Positions 1,982-32,983 of a stretch of DNA of 42,486 nt are shown one piece after another. Position 1 is the first letter of the stretch; every line of letters starts with the position of its first letter. The position numbers and the translations under genes were made by a program. The stretch lies in IMG/VR virus record IMGVR_UViG_3300043162_000032, positions 1 to 42,486 of that record, one strand, 5' to 3'. The notes below the pieces were generated by a model, which worked only from the letters and a program-made list of their open reading frames with translations, did no database searches and was not told the origin of the DNA. The DNA is from a virus.

Positions 1982-3145
1982 ATGGCCTACGAAGAGCCGG
2001 AGTTTGACGAAGACGAACGGGAAGAAGGCGAGGGCGCCGAGCCCAGCGAGGGCGATGGCGGCGAAACCGAGGCAGCCCGCGAGGCGCGGGAAGACGCGGA
2101 GGAGGCCGCGCACGAAGCGCGCCGCGGCACCCGTGGAGAGGCCGGCGAGGGTGCATCACCGGCGCCGGCCAGCAACGCTGCAGCGCCCGGCAGCCCGGAG
2201 AGTAACCCCTTCTGGTCGGTGTTGCCCGCCGCCTACCAGCAGGCGGTCAAGAGCGGCACCGTCACCGTCGAGGCCGCGCTCTCCCGCCACATGGAGAACC
2301 AGCGGCAGCACCTCTCGCGCATCCACGGCAACAACGAGCGGCTACAGCGCGAAATCGAGGCCACGCGCCAGGCGGCCGAGCAGGGGGGCGCGAAGACGGC
2401 GGCGCGCCTCGACCGGCTGCTCGGCGCGCTGGGCGTGGCCGATCCCGTCGCGGCCACCGGCCAGATCCCGGCCGCCGAGGACGACCTGGCCGGGCACCTG
2501 GTGGGGCGCCTGGGGCAGATCGAGGGGCGCCTCGAGGCCGGCCAACAGGAGGCGGCGCGCGCAGCCGAGGAGATGCAGCAGCGCGTCTACGTCGAGCGCG
2601 AGGCCGATGCCATCGAGGCGTACTCGGCTGCGCACTATGAGGCCACGGTCCAGCAATTCCCCGACTACGACCAGGCGGAGGCGTTCCTGGTCAACCGCGC
2701 CTTCTCGGCCGAGCTGATGCGCCTGACGGACCAGTTTCCGGGAGCCACGCAGGAGCAGCTGCGCCAGGCGGCAGCGCAAAGCATCCTCGCCACGTCGGCG
2801 GAGCTCCAGCGCCAGGCGCGCCGCAACGGCACGTCGCTGCCAGCGGCGGTCTACAACGCGGCGCGGCAGAATGGGTGGGGAGGCCAGCAGCAGGTCCAGC
2901 AGCAGCAGCCGGCGCGCCCGACACCGGCGCAGCAGAGGATGGCCGCCCAACGCGAGCTGCGCGGCGCCTCGCAGACGATCGCCGGCACGGCACCGCGGGT
3001 GGCGCCCCCGTCGGAAACGCAGCTTCTCGACGAGATCCTCAACTTCACCGACGAGGAGTTCGAGGAGCTTTTCGAGGGCGACGACAACCGGGCGGCCGAG
3101 AAGCATTTCAGGGCGCTATTGCAACCCTACTCGCATCCGGGGTAG
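1982..3145 (+). CDS. Probable scaffolding protein
   Basis: This 387-aa protein directly follows the portal, where P22-like phages carry the scaffold that guides procapsid assembly. It starts at ATG after AAGGAGAGGTC. The first 40 residues are very acidic (Glu/Asp runs). The middle, roughly residues 90-210, is Ala/Gln/Glu-rich and likely coiled coil. The last 40 residues form a compact acidic then basic tail (LLDEILNFTDEEFEELFEG near the end), where P22-type scaffolds keep their coat-binding hairpin. No catalytic motif is visible. The call rests on composition and position. Confidence 0.65.
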   Translation: MAYEEPEFDEDEREEGEGAEPSEGDGGETEAAREAREDAEEAAHEARRGTRGEAGEGASPAPASNAAAPGSPESNPFWSVLPAAYQQAVKSGTVTVEAALSRHMENQRQHLSRIHGNNERLQREIEATRQAAEQGGAKTAARLDRLLGALGVADPVAATGQIPAAEDDLAGHLVGRLGQIEGRLEAGQQEAARAAEEMQQRVYVEREADAIEAYSAAHYEATVQQFPDYDQAEAFLVNRAFSAELMRLTDQFPGATQEQLRQAAAQSILATSAELQRQARRNGTSLPAAVYNAARQNGWGGQQQVQQQQPARPTPAQQRMAAQRELRGASQTIAGTAPRVAPPSETQLLDEILNFTDEEFEELFEGDDNRAAEKHFRALLQPYSHPG

Positions 3146-3320
3146 GATGCCCTGGCTCGGGGTGCAATGCGGTCACCCTCTCAGACGCGCGGGCTTCCCG
3201 GCGCGAGGGCGAAACGGGGAGCTTGAAAGCGATGTGGCTGGCAATCCCTGCGGGGACCTGCGTCCGACGCGGCGCCTCAGCGCGAGCCACGACTGAGGCA
3301 CTTACTAAAGGAGGCTCGAC
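3146..3320. other. Non-coding gap before the lysis-type cassette
   Basis: This 175-base gap contains a small hairpin across the scaffold stop (GCATCC loop GGATGC, 3134-3151) and a TTGAAA at 3223 without a convincing -10 box. It ends with a strong ribosome site, AAAGGAGG, serving the GTG at 3321. The gap may mark a transcription or processing boundary between head genes and the following cassette. I see no clear terminator U-tract. Confidence 0.4.
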
Positions 3321-4451
3321 GTGGACACCGAGCAAAGCCTGGTTTCATCCCTCGCCAATCTCCTGGGCGTGCGCGCTCCGAAGCGCATCCCCAACACCTT
3401 CGTTGCCGGCTCGTTCGTCGAGGCCGGAGAGCTGTGGCCGGCTGGCCCAGCCTCCGACTACTCGACGGCTGCCATCGCAGCGCTCGCGCGCGGCGCCCTC
3501 AACGGCTCGTCCTGGAACTGGATCATGCTGGCGCTGGTGTGCTCGCTCGCCTCGAAGAGCCCCAGCGCCGACGCGTCCTGCCAGGGATGGCTCGGCCAGC
3601 AGAAGGCCAGCTACGGCTGGATGGGCGCCGAGATCGGCACCCGAGACGAAGGCTACTGGTATTTCCACCTCGTGAGCGCCTTGGTGATGTTCCGGCTCGG
3701 CTCCGCCGGCCTGAAGATGGTCGTCGGCGAATGGCTCGACCTCTGGGCCTTCTGGGCGCGCAGCGGTGCGCCGATCTGCGGGCAGCGGTCGGCGGTGCCG
3801 GGACTCGACGCCTACATGTTGGTGGACGAGACGGCGGATTACCTGCGCGGCGGTCCGCTGCCGGGCACCTCGCCGCCGACGATCGACCGCCTGCTCCTGG
3901 CGGCCGTCGCGATGGAGCTGGCGCAGCTCCGCGCCCGCGTCCCCAACAATCCCGCCTGGAAGACGGCGACGCCGGTCACCTTCTACGTGGCACCGGGCGC
4001 GGCGATGGTCGTCCTCGGCGCCAACCTCGACAGCAATACGCTGCCGGTTCTCTGCGGCTGCAGCATCAATTCGATCTCGCCGGCGCGCGCTCGCTCCTGG
4101 GCGCCCACGCCGCCGTGGGGCGCCGTTGGCAAGGATGGCGTGGTGACTCGCATCCGCGAGCAGGGCGACGGCGCCCGCTGCGTCGTCTCCGGCGGTCTGG
4201 CACGCTACACCAGCTCGCTCTTCGCGAACGTCCTCATCCCCGTCCCCGCCGGCGCAAAGGTCTACGTCCTCGGTACGGGCTCGACTGCGGCGCTGGGCGA
4301 CTCGGCCCCGGCGCCGCTCAAGCCGTTGCCGCCGCCTCCGGTCACGGCTGGCACGCCGGCTCCGGCGAAGACCGGGGGCGCCGGGTGCATGCTGCCGCTG
4401 CTCCTGTGGGTGGTTTTGGCCGCGGCGCTGGTGGCGAGGATCTGGCTGTGA
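3321..4451 (+). CDS. Tail-anchored protein of unknown function
   Basis: This 376-aa protein starts at GTG with AAAGGAGG upstream. Residues 1 to about 190 are mostly helical, with aromatic-rich segments such as EGYWYFHLVSALVMFRLG. Residues 210-310 look beta-rich. A Pro/Ala linker follows, and then one hydrophobic segment (about 354-374, MLPLLLWVVLAAALVARIWL) forms the extreme C-terminus. That layout implies a soluble domain held to a membrane by a C-terminal anchor; there is no N-terminal signal. It overlaps the next gene by GTGA and heads the cassette that contains the endolysin, so a role at the cell envelope during lysis is possible. I do not recognise the family. Confidence 0.7.
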   Translation: MDTEQSLVSSLANLLGVRAPKRIPNTFVAGSFVEAGELWPAGPASDYSTAAIAALARGALNGSSWNWIMLALVCSLASKSPSADASCQGWLGQQKASYGWMGAEIGTRDEGYWYFHLVSALVMFRLGSAGLKMVVGEWLDLWAFWARSGAPICGQRSAVPGLDAYMLVDETADYLRGGPLPGTSPPTIDRLLLAAVAMELAQLRARVPNNPAWKTATPVTFYVAPGAAMVVLGANLDSNTLPVLCGCSINSISPARARSWAPTPPWGAVGKDGVVTRIREQGDGARCVVSGGLARYTSSLFANVLIPVPAGAKVYVLGTGSTAALGDSAPAPLKPLPPPPVTAGTPAPAKTGGAGCMLPLLLWVVLAAALVARIWL

Positions 4452-4645
4452 ACCCATCGGACCCGGAAACCGGCTGGTGGTGGCCGTCCAACAGTCGCAA
4501 GGCGCACTATTTCGGCGCCGATCGCCGATCGCTTTGCGGGAGGTGGGCAGCCCTCGGCCCGGGCCTCACCTTCGAGAAAGAAGCGGGGAGCTGGCGGCCC
4601 GTCTGCGCCGAGTGCCGCCGCAAGCTGGATCGAGGCGCGACATGA
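4448..4645 (+). CDS. Small putative zinc-binding protein
   Basis: This 65-aa protein starts at a GTG overlapping the previous stop and ends in the ATGA that starts the endolysin, so it is translationally coupled on both sides. It is Trp-rich near the start and carries one early Cys (CGRW) and a late CAEC pair followed by a basic tail, a layout compatible with a short zinc ribbon. Function is unknown. The tight coupling suggests it belongs to the lysis-type operon. Confidence 0.6.
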   Translation: MNPSDPETGWWWPSNSRKAHYFGADRRSLCGRWAALGPGLTFEKEAGSWRPVCAECRRKLDRGAT

Positions 4646-5298
4646 CCACCCTCCTTGCCTGGCTGCGCTCCCTCCTGGCCCAGCTCTTCAGCCAGCCGGC
4701 GGAGCCGGCGCAGGAGGAGGTAGGCGCCGCGGCGCAGGAGGAGGTAGGCGCCGTGGTGGCGCGCGGCAACGTGGTGGTGCCGCTGCCTCCTGGCACGGCG
4801 CCGGCCCCGCTCGCCGCTGCGATTCCGCCGCCGGCCAGTGGTCCGCGCCAGATCAACGCTGCCGGGCTGGCGCTGGTCAAGGAGAGCGAGGGACTGCGGC
4901 TCGCGGCCTACCAGGACGGCGGCGGGGTGTGGACGATCGGGTACGGGCATACCGGCGCCTACCCGTCGCGGGTTGCCCCGCTTGGCGGTTGGCCCGCTGG
5001 GGCGGTTGCGGCCGGCCAGTCGATCACGACCGAGGAGGCGAACCTGCTCCTCCTTTTGGATCTTGGGGTCGCCGAAGCGGCGGTGAGCTCCGCGGCTCCG
5101 GGACTTACCGACAACCAGTTTGCCGCGCTTGTCGATTTCACCTTCAACCTCGGCGCCGGTGCCCTTCGGCAGCTCCTTGCGCACGGCCTGGATCAGGTGC
5201 CGACGCAGCTCCTGCGCTGGGATCACGTTGGAACGACGGTCGAGCCGGGACTGCTGGTGCGCCGGCAGCGGGAGGTGGCGCTATGGCAAGCGACGTGA
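4642..5298 (+). CDS. Endolysin, T4-lysozyme/GH24 type
   Basis: This 218-aa muramidase would cleave the MurNAc-GlcNAc bond of peptidoglycan at the end of infection. The T4 triad is visible with the standard spacing: Glu83 in KESEGL, Asp92 in AYQDGG and Thr98 in VWTIGYGHT. The downstream LTDNQFAALVDFTFNLGAGAL helix is typical of the family. An extension of about 70 residues precedes the catalytic domain. It begins with an amphipathic or weakly hydrophobic stretch (TLLAWLRSLLAQLF) and then a repeated QEEVGA segment and a Pro/Ala linker. The N-terminus might act as a membrane-targeting segment, but it is short for a SAR signal. It overlaps the next start (ATGG at 5283). Confidence 0.9.
   Translation: MTTLLAWLRSLLAQLFSQPAEPAQEEVGAAAQEEVGAVVARGNVVVPLPPGTAPAPLAAAIPPPASGPRQINAAGLALVKESEGLRLAAYQDGGGVWTIGYGHTGAYPSRVAPLGGWPAGAVAAGQSITTEEANLLLLLDLGVAEAAVSSAAPGLTDNQFAALVDFTFNLGAGALRQLLAHGLDQVPTQLLRWDHVGTTVEPGLLVRRQREVALWQAT
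4706..4753 (+). repeat. Perfect 24-bp tandem duplication inside the endolysin gene
   Basis: Two identical 24-bp units, 4706-4729 and 4730-4753, encode consecutive QEEVGA-containing octapeptides in the linker ahead of the lysozyme domain. The duplication keeps the frame and looks recent because the copies do not differ. Confidence 0.9.
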
Positions 5299-5519
5299 AG
5301 CCCGAGATGATCATGGTGTGGGAGGTGAGCCCAGGGTACAACGGCGCCGACTATGCGATCATCGGAGATCGCGCCGCGGCTGGCGCCTTTGTGGCGGAAC
5401 AGGCCGAGATGCTATGGGACGGCGGCGCCCTTGCGGCGACCACGCCAGGACCCGTTGTGAGGGTCCGCTGCTACGAGATGCCAAAGGCCGATTTCGAAGA
5501 GTTGGTGGAGGAGGATTGA
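5283..5519 (+). CDS. Small acidic protein, unknown
   Basis: This 78-aa protein starts inside the end of the endolysin gene and shares its stop with the next start (TGATG at 5517). It is acidic, with aromatic and hydrophobic residues spread along it (MIMVWEVSPGYNGADYAIIG) and no membrane segment or metal motif. It is probably a single small alpha/beta domain. Context places it in the lysis-type operon; the function is unknown. Confidence 0.6.
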   Translation: MASDVKPEMIMVWEVSPGYNGADYAIIGDRAAAGAFVAEQAEMLWDGGALAATTPGPVVRVRCYEMPKADFEELVEED

Positions 5520-5896
5520 TGAACCTCCGCTGGCTCTCCCCCGCCCGCGCCCTCTTGCCTGGCGCCCTGCGCGCCCCGGAGGACGACTGCGCCCCCGCGC
5601 CCTTCCTCGCCAGCGAGCCTGGCGGCGCGAGCGACCCCTTGATCTGGCTCGTAATCCTCCTCGTGCTCATCCTGGCCAGCCTGTGGATCGCGGCCGGCTT
5701 CTTCGGGCTGCCGGCCGCGCAGTGGTTCTGCGACCATGCCCTGAACAGCGCCGCAGCTGTGCTGGGCGTCGTGGTGGGGCCGCTCCTGGCCTATCGGAGC
5801 TTCAACAAGCGCACGGCGGCCAAGGTGGCAATCGCCCAGGCTGGACAAGCCCAGGCGCCGGCCAGCGTGACGGTGGCGACCGAGGTGAAGGCGTGA
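5519..5896 (+). CDS. Two-TM membrane protein, holin candidate
   Basis: This 125-aa protein has hydrophobic segments at about residues 41-63 (LIWLVILLVLILASLWIAAG) and 77-92 (AAAVLGVVVGPLL), followed by a basic stretch (YRSFNKRTAAK) and an Ala-rich tail. Two membrane helices, small size and a position just after the endolysin fit a class II-like holin that forms lesions in the inner membrane. Holins lack a shared sequence motif, so this is inference. It ends in GTGA, coupled to the next membrane protein. Confidence 0.55.
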   Translation: MNLRWLSPARALLPGALRAPEDDCAPAPFLASEPGGASDPLIWLVILLVLILASLWIAAGFFGLPAAQWFCDHALNSAAAVLGVVVGPLLAYRSFNKRTAAKVAIAQAGQAQAPASVTVATEVKA

Positions 5897-6651
5897 TCGC
5901 CTCGCCCCCCCCTGCCCCCTCCTGGACGGCGCACGCCATCGGCGCCGCCAAGACGCTCCTGCACCTCTCTGGTGCCGGGCTCCTGATCGCGGCCCTGGTG
6001 GCCGTGCTCTGGATTGGCAGCTCCTTCGCCGACCGCCTCCGACGCAAGGAGGCCGCAGCCCAGCCGGCCGTGATCGTGGCCCAGCCCACCAAGGAGCAGG
6101 CGCAGGTCAAGACCGTGGTGGTGACTCGGCCTTTCCGGGTGGACAGCCTCACCCCCAAGCAAGAGCTTCAACTCGAGATGAAATACCATCTGCCGATCGG
6201 GACCCTGCGGCCCGGCGGCGTAATGAATGCCGGAGAGCCGGGTTCAAGTCCCGGCCTTTCTCCCTCCGGGGGGATTGGTGGTGCAGGTGGCAGCACACCG
6301 GCAGCTTCACCCTCGTCGCTCGCCGCGCTCCCCGAGCAGAAGCTTCCCAAGCTGCCTTACGGCGGCACGGCGCTGCCCACCGAGGACGCGCAGGGCGCCT
6401 TCTCTCTTCTCATCAAGCCCAGCCCGCGCCCCTGGCTACAGGCCGGCGGCCTCCGGCGCCTGGGGGTGCAGTGGGACCCGATCCTGAAGACCCTTGGGGG
6501 CTTCGGCGAGCAGGACTTCTTCAGCCTCAAGGCGGGGAGCCGCGCCATCGTCTTCGGCGTGCGGCCCTTCGTGGATCTGGAATACGCCGCGCTCCCGGGC
6601 CAGAAACAGCTCAACGTCGGCGTGCCGCTCACGGCCGCCGTGGACTTCTGA
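5893..6651 (+). CDS. N-terminally membrane-anchored protein, unknown
   Basis: This 252-aa protein has one hydrophobic helix at about residues 22-43 followed by arginines, so the C-terminal bulk is probably periplasmic. A Gly/Ser/Pro-rich linker (about residues 110-140) leads to a compact C-terminal domain of about 100 residues (KLPYGGTALPTEDAQGAF onward). Two oddities lie inside the gene: a tRNA 3'-half-like sequence in the linker (6216-6262) and one arm of an exact 54-bp inverted repeat (6434-6487) in the C-terminal domain. A spanin-like role in lysis is possible from topology alone. Confidence 0.6.
   Translation: MIASPPPAPSWTAHAIGAAKTLLHLSGAGLLIAALVAVLWIGSSFADRLRRKEAAAQPAVIVAQPTKEQAQVKTVVVTRPFRVDSLTPKQELQLEMKYHLPIGTLRPGGVMNAGEPGSSPGLSPSGGIGGAGGSTPAASPSSLAALPEQKLPKLPYGGTALPTEDAQGAFSLLIKPSPRPWLQAGGLRRLGVQWDPILKTLGGFGEQDFFSLKAGSRAIVFGVRPFVDLEYAALPGQKQLNVGVPLTAAVDF
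6216..6262 (+). other. tRNA 3'-half-like fold inside a coding region
   Basis: The plus strand can fold like the 3' half of a tRNA. A 5-bp stem with a 7-nt loop (6216-6232) is followed by a 5-nt spacer and a textbook T-arm, CCGGG TTCAAGT CCCGG (6238-6254). Seven bases, CCTTTCT, then occupy the acceptor position. The anticodon-loop position 33 is not T, and no matching 5' half or D-arm precedes it, so this is not a functional tRNA gene. It may be a tRNA-derived fragment or chance in GC-rich linker DNA. Confidence 0.35.
6434..6487 (+). repeat. 54-bp inverted repeat, copy 1
   Basis: This segment is the exact reverse complement of 35065-35118. Here it encodes part of the C-terminal domain of the membrane-anchored protein (from about residue 181). 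Flanking bases on both sides do not match, so the identity is exactly 54 bp. Confidence 0.95.
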
Positions 6652-7071
6652 ATGAAACCCGATGAGGCGCAGCGCAAGGTGCTTGCCGCGGTCGGCAATC
6701 TCAGCGAGGAAGCATTCGATGAGCTGGTGGGGGATGCCGGTTTCGAGGCAACGTGCGTTGCCGTCGGCCTCTCCTCTGGTCCGGGTTGGGGGCGCTTCGT
6801 CCCGCACCGCCTCTTCCAGGCGTGGCAGCAGCTTCTCTTCCGCTGCCGAATCGCTCGACGCTGGTTGCGAGATCCCGCCTATCGTGCGGAGCGGCGCACT
6901 CTCCGTTACCAGCTCCAGCTCGCCGGCTGGAACGCCCGCAAGCGATACTGGCGGAAGCACCCCGGCGACAACCCCTACAAGATCGGCACGAATGCCGGCG
7001 CCGACGCTGCCGAGCGTGCCGGTGAGGAGAAGGCGTGGCGGCGGTACAAGCGCCGCCACGGCCTCCCTTGA
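6652..7071 (+). CDS. Basic protein of unknown function
   Basis: This 139-aa protein starts directly after the preceding stop. The first 50 residues are mildly acidic and helical. From about residue 60 it becomes rich in Arg, Trp and Tyr (RRWLRDPAYRAERRTLRYQL, then ARKRYWRKHPGDNPYKIG) and ends in a basic tail. Nucleic-acid or membrane-surface binding is plausible from charge. It is the last gene before the capsid promoter region. Confidence 0.6.
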   Translation: MKPDEAQRKVLAAVGNLSEEAFDELVGDAGFEATCVAVGLSSGPGWGRFVPHRLFQAWQQLLFRCRIARRWLRDPAYRAERRTLRYQLQLAGWNARKRYWRKHPGDNPYKIGTNAGADAAERAGEEKAWRRYKRRHGLP

Positions 7072-27356: not shown

Positions 27357-28288
27357 ATGGTCTCCTTCTCGGGCAGCATGGCGGAGAGAAGCTCCCGGAC
27401 GCTTAGCGTCCAGGAGCCGCCGGCGGCGTCGGCGGCGGCGGCGGCGGCGCGGGCGGCGGCGCGGGCGGCGGCGCGGGCGGCGTCGTCGGCGGCGGCGTCG
27501 CGGGCGGCGGCGCGGGCGGCGTCGTCGGCGTCGGCGGCGCGGGCGGCGGCGTCGGCGGCGCGGGCGGCGGCGCGGGCGGCGTCGTCGGCGCGGGCGGCGG
27601 CGTCGGCGGCGGCGCGGGCGGCGGCGTCGGCGCGGGCGGCGGCGCGGGCGGCGTCGCGGGCGGCGCGGGCGGCGCCGGCGGCGGCGCGGGCGGCGTCGTC
27701 GGCGCGGGCGGCGGCGTCGGCGGCGGCGGCGTCGGCGGCGGCGGCGTCGGCGGCGGCGTCGGCGGCGGCGCGGGCGGCGGCGTCGGCGGCGCGGGCGGCG
27801 GCGTCGGCGGCGCGGGCGGCGCGGGCGGCGGCGCGGGCGGCGTCGTCGGCGGACGGGCGGTCGATCACGGGCGCCAACCCCTCCAGCGAGACCGCAAGCG
27901 CGTCAAGCCCTGCAGCGCGCAGGGCGCGGGGCGCGGCCTTGCGGCAGGCCCAGTCTGCTGCGGCGTAGGCGCGCTCCATCATCTTGCCGTCGCCGGCGGT
28001 GCCGAGCGCTACCAGAACGAACGGCAAGAGCACTTCCGTGCGCCGCTTGTCGCTCTCCCAGTGGTGCGCGTCGTTGAGTGTACGAAACACGCCGCCAAAC
28101 TCGGGCGACATGCACTCGGGAACCAGGTCGCGCACGTGGCCGTAGCGCGCGAAGTGGGCCGCCTCCATCACGCAGTTGCCTGGATTCCGTTCGCCGTGAG
28201 AGCCGTGGCTGAAGGGCACCTCCGCGGCGCGCCGGAGGAGGCGCTCCCTGACCATCTCGACAGTGACGACCTCGATCTCTTCGTTCAT
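27353..28288 (-). CDS. Phage protein with long Ala/Arg/Asp repeat
   Basis: This 311-aa protein couples to its neighbours by ATGA and TTGA overlaps. Residues 1-143 form a folded domain with NCVMEAAHFARYGHVRDLVP, GGVFRTLNDAHHW and GTAGDGKMMERAYAAADWAC, a pattern I recognise from a family of phage and actinobacterial proteins of unknown function. Residues about 145-289 consist almost only of Ala with Arg and Asp in units such as ADAAARAADAAARA. A short C-terminal segment (GSWTLSVRELLSAMLPEKET) closes it. The repeat should form one very long charged helix or bundle. Position between exonuclease and annealing protein hints at a link with recombination, but this is inference. Confidence 0.7.
   Translation of the reverse strand: MNEEIEVVTVEMVRERLLRRAAEVPFSHGSHGERNPGNCVMEAAHFARYGHVRDLVPECMSPEFGGVFRTLNDAHHWESDKRRTEVLLPFVLVALGTAGDGKMMERAYAAADWACRKAAPRALRAAGLDALAVSLEGLAPVIDRPSADDAARAAARAARAADAAARAADAAARAAADAAADAAAADAAAADAAARADDAARAAAGAARAARDAARAAARADAAARAAADAAARADDAARAAARAADAAARAADADDAARAAARDAAADDAARAAARAAARAAAAAADAAGGSWTLSVRELLSAMLPEKETI
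27420..27855. repeat. GC-rich degenerate hexamer repeat coding for Ala/Arg/Asp
   Basis: About 435 bp consist of permuted GCGGCG, GCGGGC and GTCGGC units with almost no other bases; adenine and free thymine are nearly absent. On the minus strand it encodes the poly-(Ala/Arg/Asp) region. On the plus strand it leaves long spurious open frames. Such DNA is prone to slippage, so its length may vary between virions. Confidence 0.9.
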
Positions 28289-31003: not shown

Positions 31004-31053
31004 GTTGGCTGCGATCTGAGGGCATGATAGGGCATCGATAGGCCCCTGTCAAG
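31004..31053. repeat. 50-bp direct repeat, copy 1 (early promoter)
   Basis: This sequence is identical to 31480-31529, 476 bp away. It spans the complete minus-strand early promoter, from just before -35 into the start of the untranslated leader. Similarity continues beyond the exact repeat on the upstream side, where a plus-strand promoter and start region are also duplicated in decayed form. Confidence 0.95.
31024..31052 (-). promoter_or_regulatory. Early leftward promoter, inner copy
   Basis: On the minus strand, TTGACA (31052-31047), a 17-bp spacer and TATCAT (31029-31024) form a near-consensus sigma70 promoter driving the 54-aa and 126-aa genes. The TGA stop of the upstream 138-aa gene lies inside the TTGACA box, so the promoter begins exactly where that gene ends. 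Confidence 0.8.
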
Positions 31054-31465
31054 TGGCATCTTGCGGGGTGCGCCGACGGGATGGTACGATGCGCCGCTGG
31101 AGGTACCGCCACATGCCAAAGGGTGTCTTTGCCGCCAGTACGATCGTGTAGTCCGTGCCGGGATTGGCGCAGTAGAGGCGCGCCTGCATTTTCTCCGCGT
31201 CTTCGAGCGTCAAGCTCCAGCCGACCACCCATTCAGCATCATCTTTCGAGGCCACGATGTTGTAGAGCTCGGTGGCTGCGCGATAGGTGTTCTGGGCGTA
31301 GGGGCCTTGGGCGATACGCTCCGGGGAGGCGGGGCGAATCGTCTCGCCGTTGTCGCTCACCGGCGCGCCGGCCTCGGCGCAGTACGCGGCCAACGCCTCG
31401 CTCGGGCTCTCGGCGTCGTACAACCCCATGTCGAGTCCGGCTTCGTTTATGATCTGGTAGAGCAT
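31049..31465 (-). CDS. 138-aa early protein with fossil control DNA at its end
   Basis: The start ATG at 31465 has AAGGAGG five bases upstream and follows the outer early promoter. The protein begins MLYQIINEAGLDMGLYDAES and has an EALAAYCAEAG helix, a layout seen in small phage proteins without known function. A second alpha/beta part ends in YTIVLAAKTPFGMWRYLQRR. The last 20 or so codons run through DNA homologous to the rightward regulator's promoter and start site, read in reverse. The natural C-terminus has therefore probably been replaced. Confidence 0.65.
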   Translation of the reverse strand: MLYQIINEAGLDMGLYDAESPSEALAAYCAEAGAPVSDNGETIRPASPERIAQGPYAQNTYRAATELYNIVASKDDAEWVVGWSLTLEDAEKMQARLYCANPGTDYTIVLAAKTPFGMWRYLQRRIVPSRRRTPQDAT

Positions 31466-31479
31466 TGCACCCTCCTTGG

Positions 31480-31529
31480 GTTGGCTGCGATCTGAGGGCA
31501 TGATAGGGCATCGATAGGCCCCTGTCAAG
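31480..31529. repeat. 50-bp direct repeat, copy 2 (early promoter)
   Basis: Exact copy of 31004-31053, carrying the outer early leftward promoter. This copy adjoins the intact array of GCTAGC sites and the functional-looking regulator promoter. Confidence 0.95.
31500..31528 (-). promoter_or_regulatory. Early leftward promoter, outer copy
   Basis: TTGACA (31528-31523), a 17-bp spacer and TATCAT (31505-31500) on the minus strand drive the 138-aa gene and possibly everything to the left. The -35 box lies 25 bp from the first hexamer of the operator array, so one regulator could act on both divergent promoters. Confidence 0.8.
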
Positions 31530-31552: not shown

Positions 31553-31591
31553 GCGAGCATCTTGCTAGCGCCGCGCTAGCACTTTGCTAGC
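31553..31591. promoter_or_regulatory. Phased operator array of GCTAGC palindromes
   Basis: Perfect palindromic hexamers GCTAGC start at 31564, 31575 and 31586, and a one-mismatch copy (GCGAGC) starts at 31553. All are spaced by exactly 11 bp, one helical turn. The array ends two bases before the -35 box of the regulator promoter. Short palindromic half-sites in phase are what ribbon-helix-helix repressors bind cooperatively, and the next gene encodes such a protein. Confidence 0.75.
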
Positions 31592-31592
31592 C

Positions 31593-31623
31593 TTGACGCG
31601 GCCGCGCGCAGGGATGCTACAAT
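31593..31623 (+). promoter_or_regulatory. Rightward promoter of the regulator gene
   Basis: TTGACG (31593-31598) and TACAAT (31618-31623) are 19 bp apart, longer than ideal, but the -10 is extended (TGC before TACAAT), which tolerates a weak -35. The start falls near 31630, giving a leader of about 16 bases before ATG 31646. GGAGGT lies at 31635-31640. Confidence 0.65.
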
Positions 31624-31645
31624 GCGCCCCCATTGGAGGTCCCAC

Positions 31646-31849
31646 ATGCCAAAGATGGCCCAGATCAGGGTGTACATCCCGCACCAGACTCTTGTGGCGC
31701 TCAACCGCCGGGCGGCCAGCGCCGGTATCACGCTCTCGGAGGTGGTGCGGCTGACGCTGCGTGCCGGCCTGAGCGGTCGGAGGGGCGATGTGCTGCCTGC
31801 GGCGCCCGATGCCGAAGCTGCCCCGCTGGAAGCGGCGCCGGCCGCCTGA
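31646..31849 (+). CDS. Ribbon-helix-helix DNA-binding regulator
   Basis: This 67-aa protein has the compact CopG/Arc-like fold pattern: a strand at residues about 5-11 (AQIRVYI), helix A at 12-25 (PHQTLVALNRRAAS) and helix B at 29-42 (TLSEVVRLTLRAGL), then an Ala/Pro-rich tail. In this family the strand inserts in the major groove of a short palindrome as a dimer, and dimers stack on phased sites. The GCTAGC array directly upstream is the obvious target, implying autoregulation and control of the divergent early promoter. ATG 31646 is chosen for its GGAGGT. Confidence 0.8.
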   Translation: MPKMAQIRVYIPHQTLVALNRRAASAGITLSEVVRLTLRAGLSGRRGDVLPAAPDAEAAPLEAAPAA

Positions 31850-31858
31850 GCCGGCGCC

Positions 31859-32983
31859 ATGGGCGAGCGATTCCGCAAGATCGACCCCCGGATTTGGAAT
31901 GACGCCCGCTTCGGGGCGCTTTCCGACGACGGGCAACTCGCATTCATTTTCCTGCTGTCGCACCCCGCAATGACCACGCTCGGCGGGATGCGCGGCACCG
32001 CCGATGGCTTGGCGGCCGAGAAGGGATGGGCGGCGCAGAGGATGCGCCGTGCGCTGCTCGAGCTGTCGGTGGTCGGCCCCGGTCACGAGTTCGCCATGGT
32101 CGAGCACTGGCCCCTTCTGATCGCGCTTCCCCGCTTCCTGCGCTACAACCCCCCCAACGGCCCCAACGGCGTCACCCTGGCCTGGCCGGCAGCTGTTCCT
32201 CTCCTGCCGGAGTGCCTTGGCCGCCACCGCGTAGTGGCGCGCGCCATCGCCTGCGTGGAGTCCTTGAGCGAGAAGTTCAGAGCTGATCCGGGCGTCCAGG
32301 CTGCCTTGGATGCCATGCGCCTCACCATCCAGCATGCCAAGCCTGATGGCGTGGGACATGCCATGCCACATGCCATGTCGGACGGCATCGACCATGGCCT
32401 CTCGCGCGAGGGAGCTGGGAGCTGGGAGCTGGGAGCTGGGAGCTGCCTTACACCCCCTGACCCCCCTCGGCTTCCGGGGATGGCATCCGACATGGCATCC
32501 CCCTCGGCGCCGGCCAAGCGCCGGAGCGCGCGCGACCAACCGCTCCGATTGCACCGGGACCCCGAGCTGACCTGGCGCATCGAGCAGTGCTGGGAGCATG
32601 CCTGCGAAGCCCGCCGCAGGTTCTACCGCTCCGTCAACGGCGCCGCCGGGCCGCCACCGACGCTCACCCCAGCGATCCGCGACGCCATCGCCGCGGCGAT
32701 CGAGCTCCACGACAGCGCCCTCCTCGGCGCCGACCAGCGCGACGCCTGGCTCGCTGCCTCCAAGCCCTACGCCGCCGGCGTAGGGCTTTTCCTCGACCCG
32801 TGGATGACCGGCGAGCACAAGGACAACGACCTGCGCAACGGCGGCAAGCGCTACCTGGAGCCGGAGAGGGCCTGGTTGCCGCAGAAGGGCAAGCCCGACC
32901 CGGTAGGGCGCTTCGCCGAGCTTTGCTTCGACCAGCGAGCCGCTCGACAGGCCGCAGCGGCCGCCAAGGAGCCGACGCCATGA
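31859..32983 (+). CDS. Replication initiator-like protein (lambda O-like layout)
   Basis: This 374-aa protein begins with a winged-helix type domain found in many phage replication proteins: KIDPRIWNDARFGALSDDGQ, then FIFLLSHPAMTTLGGMRGT and LPRFLRYNPPNGPN (to about residue 105). Residues about 150-215 are low complexity (Met/His/Ala/Pro and a GAGSWEL heptad) because the DNA carries iteron-like repeats. A helical C-terminal domain follows (about 225-365). A DNA-binding N-terminus, repeats in mid-gene and a partner-binding C-terminus is the layout of lambda O. It starts 9 bases after the regulator gene and overlaps the next gene. Confidence 0.7.
   Translation: MGERFRKIDPRIWNDARFGALSDDGQLAFIFLLSHPAMTTLGGMRGTADGLAAEKGWAAQRMRRALLELSVVGPGHEFAMVEHWPLLIALPRFLRYNPPNGPNGVTLAWPAAVPLLPECLGRHRVVARAIACVESLSEKFRADPGVQAALDAMRLTIQHAKPDGVGHAMPHAMSDGIDHGLSREGAGSWELGAGSCLTPPDPPRLPGMASDMASPSAPAKRRSARDQPLRLHRDPELTWRIEQCWEHACEARRRFYRSVNGAAGPPPTLTPAIRDAIAAAIELHDSALLGADQRDAWLAASKPYAAGVGLFLDPWMTGEHKDNDLRNGGKRYLEPERAWLPQKGKPDPVGRFAELCFDQRAARQAAAAAKEPTP
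32310..32500. other. Candidate replication origin (iteron cluster)
   Basis: Within the initiator gene, the core ATGCCA (or its complement TGGCAT) recurs near 32310, 32334, 32358, 32363, 32370, 32483 and 32495, with a related CATGGC at 32393. The copies at 32480-32500 form a 12-bp direct repeat. A heptamer array lies in the middle. Clustering of short repeats at the domain junction of an initiator gene parallels lambda ori inside O. There is no marked AT-rich stretch here; the nearest begins at 33507. Confidence 0.5.
32410..32444 (+). repeat. Five tandem GGGAGCT heptamers
   Basis: Five exact copies of GGGAGCT follow each other without a break. Because 7 is not a multiple of 3, the protein repeat has a 7-residue period (GAGSWEL). 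Gain or loss of a single unit would shift the initiator frame, so the copy number is constrained unless changed in threes. Confidence 0.95.

Follow-up and report, generated by a model that had tools for sequence, protein, structure and literature searches.

A phased array of palindromic hexamers beside a small ribbon-helix-helix gene: a probable tandem operator in the early region of a phage

Introduction

Ribbon-helix-helix (RHH) proteins form dimers of twofold symmetry that read a short palindrome with the ribbon, neighbours positioned 10–12 bp apart share a face of the helix, and most of the characterised RHH regulators are autorepressors. Among phages, one example is presented by Arc and Mnt of P22, which belong to a secondary immunity region that accompanies a CI/Cro-type switch. 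Among plasmids, an example is pMV158, in which the gene for the RHH autorepressor CopG is found directly ahead of the gene for the replication initiator, RepB. Small viral regulators of this fold are also known from Archaea: F55 of the Sulfolobus virus SSV1 is a lysogeny regulator that controls the early genes and its own gene through tandem-repeat operators, and AvtR of AFV6 covers the region between two divergent promoters, spreads along it, and both activates and represses (PMC5569661). As to multiple sites, neighbouring dimers of RelB of Escherichia coli cooperate on the four hexads of relO (PMC2812701), and ParR of plasmid R1 requires two or more 11-bp repeats (PMC9426499).

Here we describe a phage locus that resembles these systems in different respects. 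The window (the whole stretch of DNA that was analysed, 42,486 bp) contains four hexamers in 11-bp phase next to a gene for a 67-aa RHH protein, P0001. We read this array as a cooperative tandem RHH operator, with P0001 as its ligand, serving autorepression of the RHH and replication genes and possibly affecting the divergent leftward promoter, and we give this reading a probability of approximately 0.68. The actual evidence consists of the array, the RHH identity of the protein, the order of the genes, and the recurrent association of such arrays, with 11-bp phasing, with other RHH genes. Literature searches on GCTAGC or TGCTAGCA in connection with RHH operators yielded cloning sites or unrelated text only.

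The Array and Its Surroundings

A sequence scan of the whole window places GCGAGC at 31553-31558 and GCTAGC at 31564-31569, 31575-31580, and 31586-31591. The spacing is exactly 11 bp for all four hexamers, with GCGAGC in phase with the three copies of GCTAGC, and the positions and the strict phase given in the preliminary description are thus exact. Tandem RHH operators have half-sites repeated at a constant 8–12 bp on one face of the helix, and the array presents four such sites at 11 bp, palindromic hexamers of this kind fitting the site expected for an RHH dimer. The GCTAGC hexamer occurs three times in the window, always within a single 28-bp stretch (the probability of three given copies all falling within 28 bp is approximately 1e-6), and even its CTAG core is found only 10 times in these 42,486 bp of 70% GC DNA, three of the 10 being inside the array. 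No other palindromic hexamer of the window recurs three times at a constant spacing of 10–12 bp, and any such run was encountered in 3, 8, and 5 of 300 simulated genomes (Markov orders 2, 3, and 5, respectively), or 1–3%. The spacers, ATCTT, GCCGC, and ACTTT, are all different, and the hexamers are kept, which is the expectation for protein sites rather than for a satellite. The features of the region are as follows.

31004..31121, strand not assigned: partial duplicate of the divergent region, array absent; copy of P_L at 31052-31024, 94% identical
31049..31465, minus strand: 138-aa gene served by P_L, no assigned function
31500..31528, minus strand: P_L, divergent leftward early promoter; TTGACA at 31528-31523, TATCAT at 31505-31500, spacer 17 bp, 11 of 12 consensus positions
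31553..31591, strand not assigned: putative phased operator array, 39 bp, four palindromic or near-palindromic hexamers (exact scan, 11-bp spacing)
31593..31623, plus strand: P_R, promoter of the RHH/replication operon; -35 TTGACG at 31593-31598, extended -10 TGC TACAAT at 31615-31623 (TACAAT at 31618-31623), spacer 19 bp, by eye
31636..31641, plus strand: Shine-Dalgarno sequence GGAGGT of the RHH gene, read from the sequence
31646..31849, plus strand: RHH gene (P0001), 67 aa, protein presumed to bind the array (sequence, PHROG, and fold matches)
31859..32983, plus strand: replication initiation/DnaD-like gene, second in the rightward operon (phrog_25711, E = 9e-17)

The array is positioned between the near-consensus P_L, whose -35 element is 24 bp away, and P_R of the RHH gene, whose -35 element is separated from it by one base, not by two as originally described. 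P_R is missing from the promoter scan, whose spacer range is 16–18 bp. P_L drives small leftward genes that have no assigned function; further left, on the same strand, are genes for a RecE exonuclease, a RecT annealing protein, and a helicase, a transcript shared with the P_L genes not being established. The gene between RecE and RecT contains a long GC-rich tract of 9/12-bp repeats (GGCGGC; 27400-27830), encoding an Ala/Asp/Arg repeat. On the rightward side, the replication gene has weaker matches to a DnaD-like loader and to replication-initiation families; it has lambda O/primosomal relatives, and it contains a tandem 7-bp repeat, GGGAGCT, at about 32410-32445, placed like the origin iterons of the lambda O type.

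This early layout is lambdoid, with the RHH gene in the Cro slot, as the first rightward early gene, ahead of the replication initiator. In the Paracoccus phage KLEP18-1, a distant relative (capsid 32% identical), the same slot is occupied by a putative transcriptional regulator, Cro-like by eye. Searches of the phage record with the PF00589, PF00239, and PF01381 profiles, with positive controls, detected no tyrosine integrase, serine resolvase, or HTH_3 (CI/Cro-type) gene, so that the HTH_3 repressor pair and the integrase of a CI/Cro-type immunity switch are not found in this record, in agreement with the preliminary description, which saw neither a CI/Cro pair nor an integrase.

The duplicated segment carries its near-copy of P_L 476 bp away from P_L, with neither the array nor the -35 element of P_R. 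It retains a -10-like TGGTACGAT and a relic of the start of the RHH gene (GGAGGT...ATGCCAAAG, with ATGCCAAAG at 31113), through which the 138-aa leftward gene reads, and the stop codon of this gene falls in the -35 element of the duplicated promoter. As this copy of P_L lacks the array, not all early promoters are under the array, and the copied promoter would escape control.

The 67-aa Protein

P0001 is predicted to be an RHH protein, each single score being weak but the sequence, PHROG, and fold matches agreeing. Its sequence match in PDB is the VapB26 antitoxin (E = 0.013), and its best PHROG match is the Arc-like repressor phrog_2639 (E = 0.0023). Of the elements of the RHH fold, a short N-terminal strand and two helices, the AF2 model of the monomer has the helices, at 13-26 and 30-44, following an extended N-terminal segment (core pLDDT 83–89), in which the strand itself was not called. 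The Foldseek matches are mostly RHH proteins (VapB26, CdbA, Arc, CopG, Rv0298, AmrZ, SvtR), none below E 0.06. In Pfam, no family scored above its cut-off, and Arc and PF22513 were absent at E up to 0.5. P0001 also does not belong with the FitA-like antitoxins, defined by PF22513 and an adjacent PIN toxin, the next gene being the replication initiator. The concordance among VapB26, phrog_2639, AF2, and Foldseek supports the early assignment of a 67-aa RHH gene next to the array.

As judged by sequence, P0001 appears to be an orphan. BLAST of phages, plasmids, 17 array-bearing records, and 398 Pseudomonadota genomes returned no ortholog above noise, and capsid-based searches recovered distant phages only, whose genomes have no comparable GCTAGC arrays except for one intragenic 11-bp pair in MW202512. 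The sole candidate relative in IMG/VR was rejected as a chance match inside a replication-protein gene.

Phased Hexamers at Other RHH Genes

Three GCTAGC hexamers at 11 bp were found in 25 stretches of IMG/VR and in 76 stretches from the 84,980 genomes searched, many of the latter stretches being satellites, and the satellite repeats were left out of the argument. In a spacing control with three GCTAGC in IMG/VR, 10, 11, and 12 bp gave 4, 25, and 21 stretches, respectively, the 12-bp stretches being for the most part repeats whose spacers are identical, a pattern to be expected of in-frame coding repeats. Raw counts alone are therefore no proof of a preference for 11 bp, and the argument rests on footprints.

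An RHH profile, built from family members and run over 14,078 ORFs of the array loci, identified convincing array-adjoining RHH genes in a phage (L032) and in a MAG (L058), and a third case, in Cupriavidus laharis (L075), was added by inspection. P0001 and the L032 protein are themselves members of the profile, so their own scores are not independent, while the result for L058 is. In the MAG, the array is located 9–10 bp before a gene for a FitA-like RHH antitoxin (PF22513, E = 2e-17), with a PIN toxin gene (PF01850, E = 8e-12) after it, and the leader includes two further degenerate sites, GCTTGC and GCCAGC, in phase with the array. In C. laharis, the array is 12 bp before an RHH gene with a weak Pfam match (PF07878, E = 0.004). 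In the L032 phage, an array with 10-bp spacing lies between two divergent RHH-like genes, and the RHH protein has no relative in IMG/VR besides itself. In both the Cupriavidus genome (6.1 Mb) and the L058 genome (2.8 Mb), the array is the only site of the form GCTAGC-N4/5-GCTAGC.

One footprint comes from the Cupriavidus gene and its five orthologs (87–58% identity): all six Burkholderiaceae copies possess three hexamers at exactly 11 bp upstream of the start (GCTAGC, ACTAGC, GCTCGC, ACTTGC, ACTTAC, ACTCAC, or GCTCAC), with the spacers, the outer hexamers, and the surroundings diverged. More distant homologs have other motifs upstream. Another footprint comes from the FitA-like antitoxin, 29 homologs of which, with the seed excluded, contain 11 GMTAKC-like pairs at 11 bp, versus 0.4 in shuffles, none of 500 shuffles reaching 11; as GMTAKC was picked after inspection of the upstream sequences, this count supports the phasing but is not a blind test of it. 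The window's degenerate GCGAGC is in keeping with the hexamer tolerance seen in these footprints. Taken together, the footprints and the loci identify GCTAGC-like hexamers in 11-bp phase as a recurrent form of RHH operator, and these independent loci, along with the phylogenetic footprint, support the association of RHH genes with phased arrays that was first noticed in the window, where the array stands between two early promoters that diverge. As to the leaders of the FitA-like genes, they display phased palindromic hexamers (GATATC, GATAGC, GCTAGC, GATAAC, GACAGC), for the most part at 11 bp, which suggests that the operator code changes along with the protein.

Arrays were also encountered in other settings. 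In Microbacterium testaceum (L100, 4748-4880), a dense GCTAGC cluster precedes a gene for a ParA-type ATPase, whose small partner protein looks RHH-like at its C-terminus, though weakly (E 0.11); this cluster is possibly a partition centromere. A 41-kb contig of Oerskovia merdavium (NZ_JACSQF010000028.1, 2943-6783) has phased GCTAGC arrays at four genes, each 18–32 bp ahead of the start codon; these genes apparently form a regulon, and the 40 kb of the contig that were examined yielded no recognisable RHH gene. A Bradyrhizobium prophage of 39.8 kb (G012, L131/L132, matching Bradyrhizobium uaiense) has 11-bp-paired GCTAGC at four places, one of which precedes a replication-initiation gene, and there is an AlpA-type excisionase/regulator gene 263 bp from an array; no clear RHH gene was recognised in this prophage either. 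Four unrelated phages (L133, L006, L012, L021) have a GCTAGC array associated with a replication/primosomal gene, lying ahead of it, inside it, or at its end. A similar array, ggGCTAGCaccggGCTAGC, is found in six loci of Rhodoferax, Giesbergeria, Rhodocyclaceae, and others (L069, L070, L082, L083, L095, L127), in L069 14 bp before an integrase-like gene.

Proposed Mechanism and Alternatives

We propose that four RHH dimers would occupy the array, each inserting its two-stranded ribbon into the major groove at one palindrome (GCTAGC or GCGAGC), and that they would line up along a single helix face, 11 bp from one to the next, and bind cooperatively. The ligand would be the 67-aa protein, encoded 55 bp downstream of the array. 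Once accumulated, the protein would fill the array and block RNA polymerase at P_R, as a filled array, ending immediately before the -35 element, should do. Repression of both the RHH gene and the replication initiator would follow, a negative autoregulation as in CopG-RepB, and a second effect, either activation or repression, may be exerted on the leftward early genes via P_L. P0001 would thus take the job that Cro performs in lambdoid phages. Binding of P0001 to the array, its cooperativity, and the sign of regulation are what we infer from the evidence listed at the outset. Filament-like binding, suggested in the preliminary description, and a lysis/lysogeny switch would go beyond this evidence. 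Counting against the proposal are the searches that turned up no ortholog of P0001 in its own lineage, the arrays of the Bradyrhizobium prophage and the Oerskovia contig, with no clear RHH gene nearby, the position of the array upstream of both -35 boxes, which activators also use, the 19-bp spacer and by-eye call of P_R, and the duplicated P_L without an array.

The position of the array and the P_R spacer also bear on a mainly activating operator, in which dimers at about -39 to -77 would recruit RNA polymerase to P_R, P_L, or both at low protein, with repression only at saturation. The array covers neither a -10 element nor a start site, the long P_R spacer suggests a promoter that could need help, and the archaeal AvtR exerts both effects from the region between divergent promoters (PMC5569661). 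However, at the best comparison loci the arrays are over the leader just before the gene start, which is a repressor position. As autorepression also prevails among the characterised RHH regulators, we consider a mainly activating role unlikely.

The array could also represent origin iterons or initiator sites for the replication-initiator product or a partner, the RHH gene being coincidental or a copy-number regulator. It is one gene ahead of the replication gene, and the four unrelated phages mentioned above have theirs at replication/primosomal genes. This is nevertheless improbable: the array of the window is sandwiched by two promoters, with no adjacent AT-rich stretch, the loci of C. laharis, where the array is conserved, and of the MAG have RHH genes and no replication gene, and the 7-bp repeats inside the replication gene make a likelier iteron set. 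Still less probable is binding by a phage- or host-encoded regulator of another fold, with the RHH protein acting elsewhere; this would suit the arrays of the Bradyrhizobium prophage, with its AlpA-type gene, and of the Oerskovia contig, whereas several unrelated genomes have RHH genes no more than 60 bp from arrays, and the 11-bp phasing recurs in the leaders of RHH antitoxins. Chance, or a functionless simple 11-bp tandem repeat, has in its favour that many bacterial matches to the same pattern are satellite-like, with identical spacers; it can practically be dismissed, the window having differing spacers, kept hexamers, and no GCTAGC elsewhere.

With the array read as a cooperative RHH operator, an orphan 67-aa phage protein becomes a testable regulator with a defined target, and the locus suggests that in a phage of lambdoid layout the early switch could be operated by an RHH protein standing where Cro would. 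The signature of palindromic hexamers in 11-bp phase has located RHH-adjoining loci in unrelated genomes, and it could help in assigning operators to further RHH proteins. A broader proposal is more doubtful and is offered tentatively: that GCTAGC-like palindromes (G-A/C-T-A-G/T-C, 11 bp) are a widespread, undescribed RHH operator code in phages, antitoxins, and possibly partition systems, and, at the same time, that in this bacterial podovirus-like phage the entire CI/Cro switch has given way to a single RHH protein and its one four-site array.

Comparison with Known Systems

RelB-relO is different from the window in its 12-bp half-sites, its [A/T]TGT[A/C]A hexads, and in RelB being an antitoxin with a toxin as co-repressor (PMC2812701). 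ParR-parC shares with the window an RHH protein and tandem 11-bp repeats (PMC9426499), but parC is a partition centromere operating with ParM filaments, and no ParM/ParA ATPase gene adjoins the array of the window, its neighbours being the RHH gene, the replication initiator, and two small leftward genes. The FitAB-type operators also have 11-bp-phased GMTAKC-like hexamers, GCTAGC being one form, but P0001 has neither a toxin partner nor a FitA-like Pfam match.

Arc and Mnt are, as P0001 would be, phage RHH repressors, and the fold search ranked Arc among the best matches of P0001, but the P22 system has no four-site palindromic array. AvtR is likewise an RHH regulator with a divergent promoter region, but it is archaeal, has two fused RHH motifs per chain, and has eight genomic sites. 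F55 is, as proposed here for P0001, a small viral RHH protein regulating through tandem-repeat operators, but SSV1 is an archaeal virus, its repeats are of the form ATAGATAG, and the sites are at several promoters, versus one array in the window. CopG-RepB has the same order of genes, and CopG is a fold match of P0001, but that system controls plasmid copy number from another operator. Overall, the array joins the known class of tandem RHH operators, being of an ordinary kind in an unusually clean form, and the new placement of an RHH regulator as a substitute for Cro is plausible.
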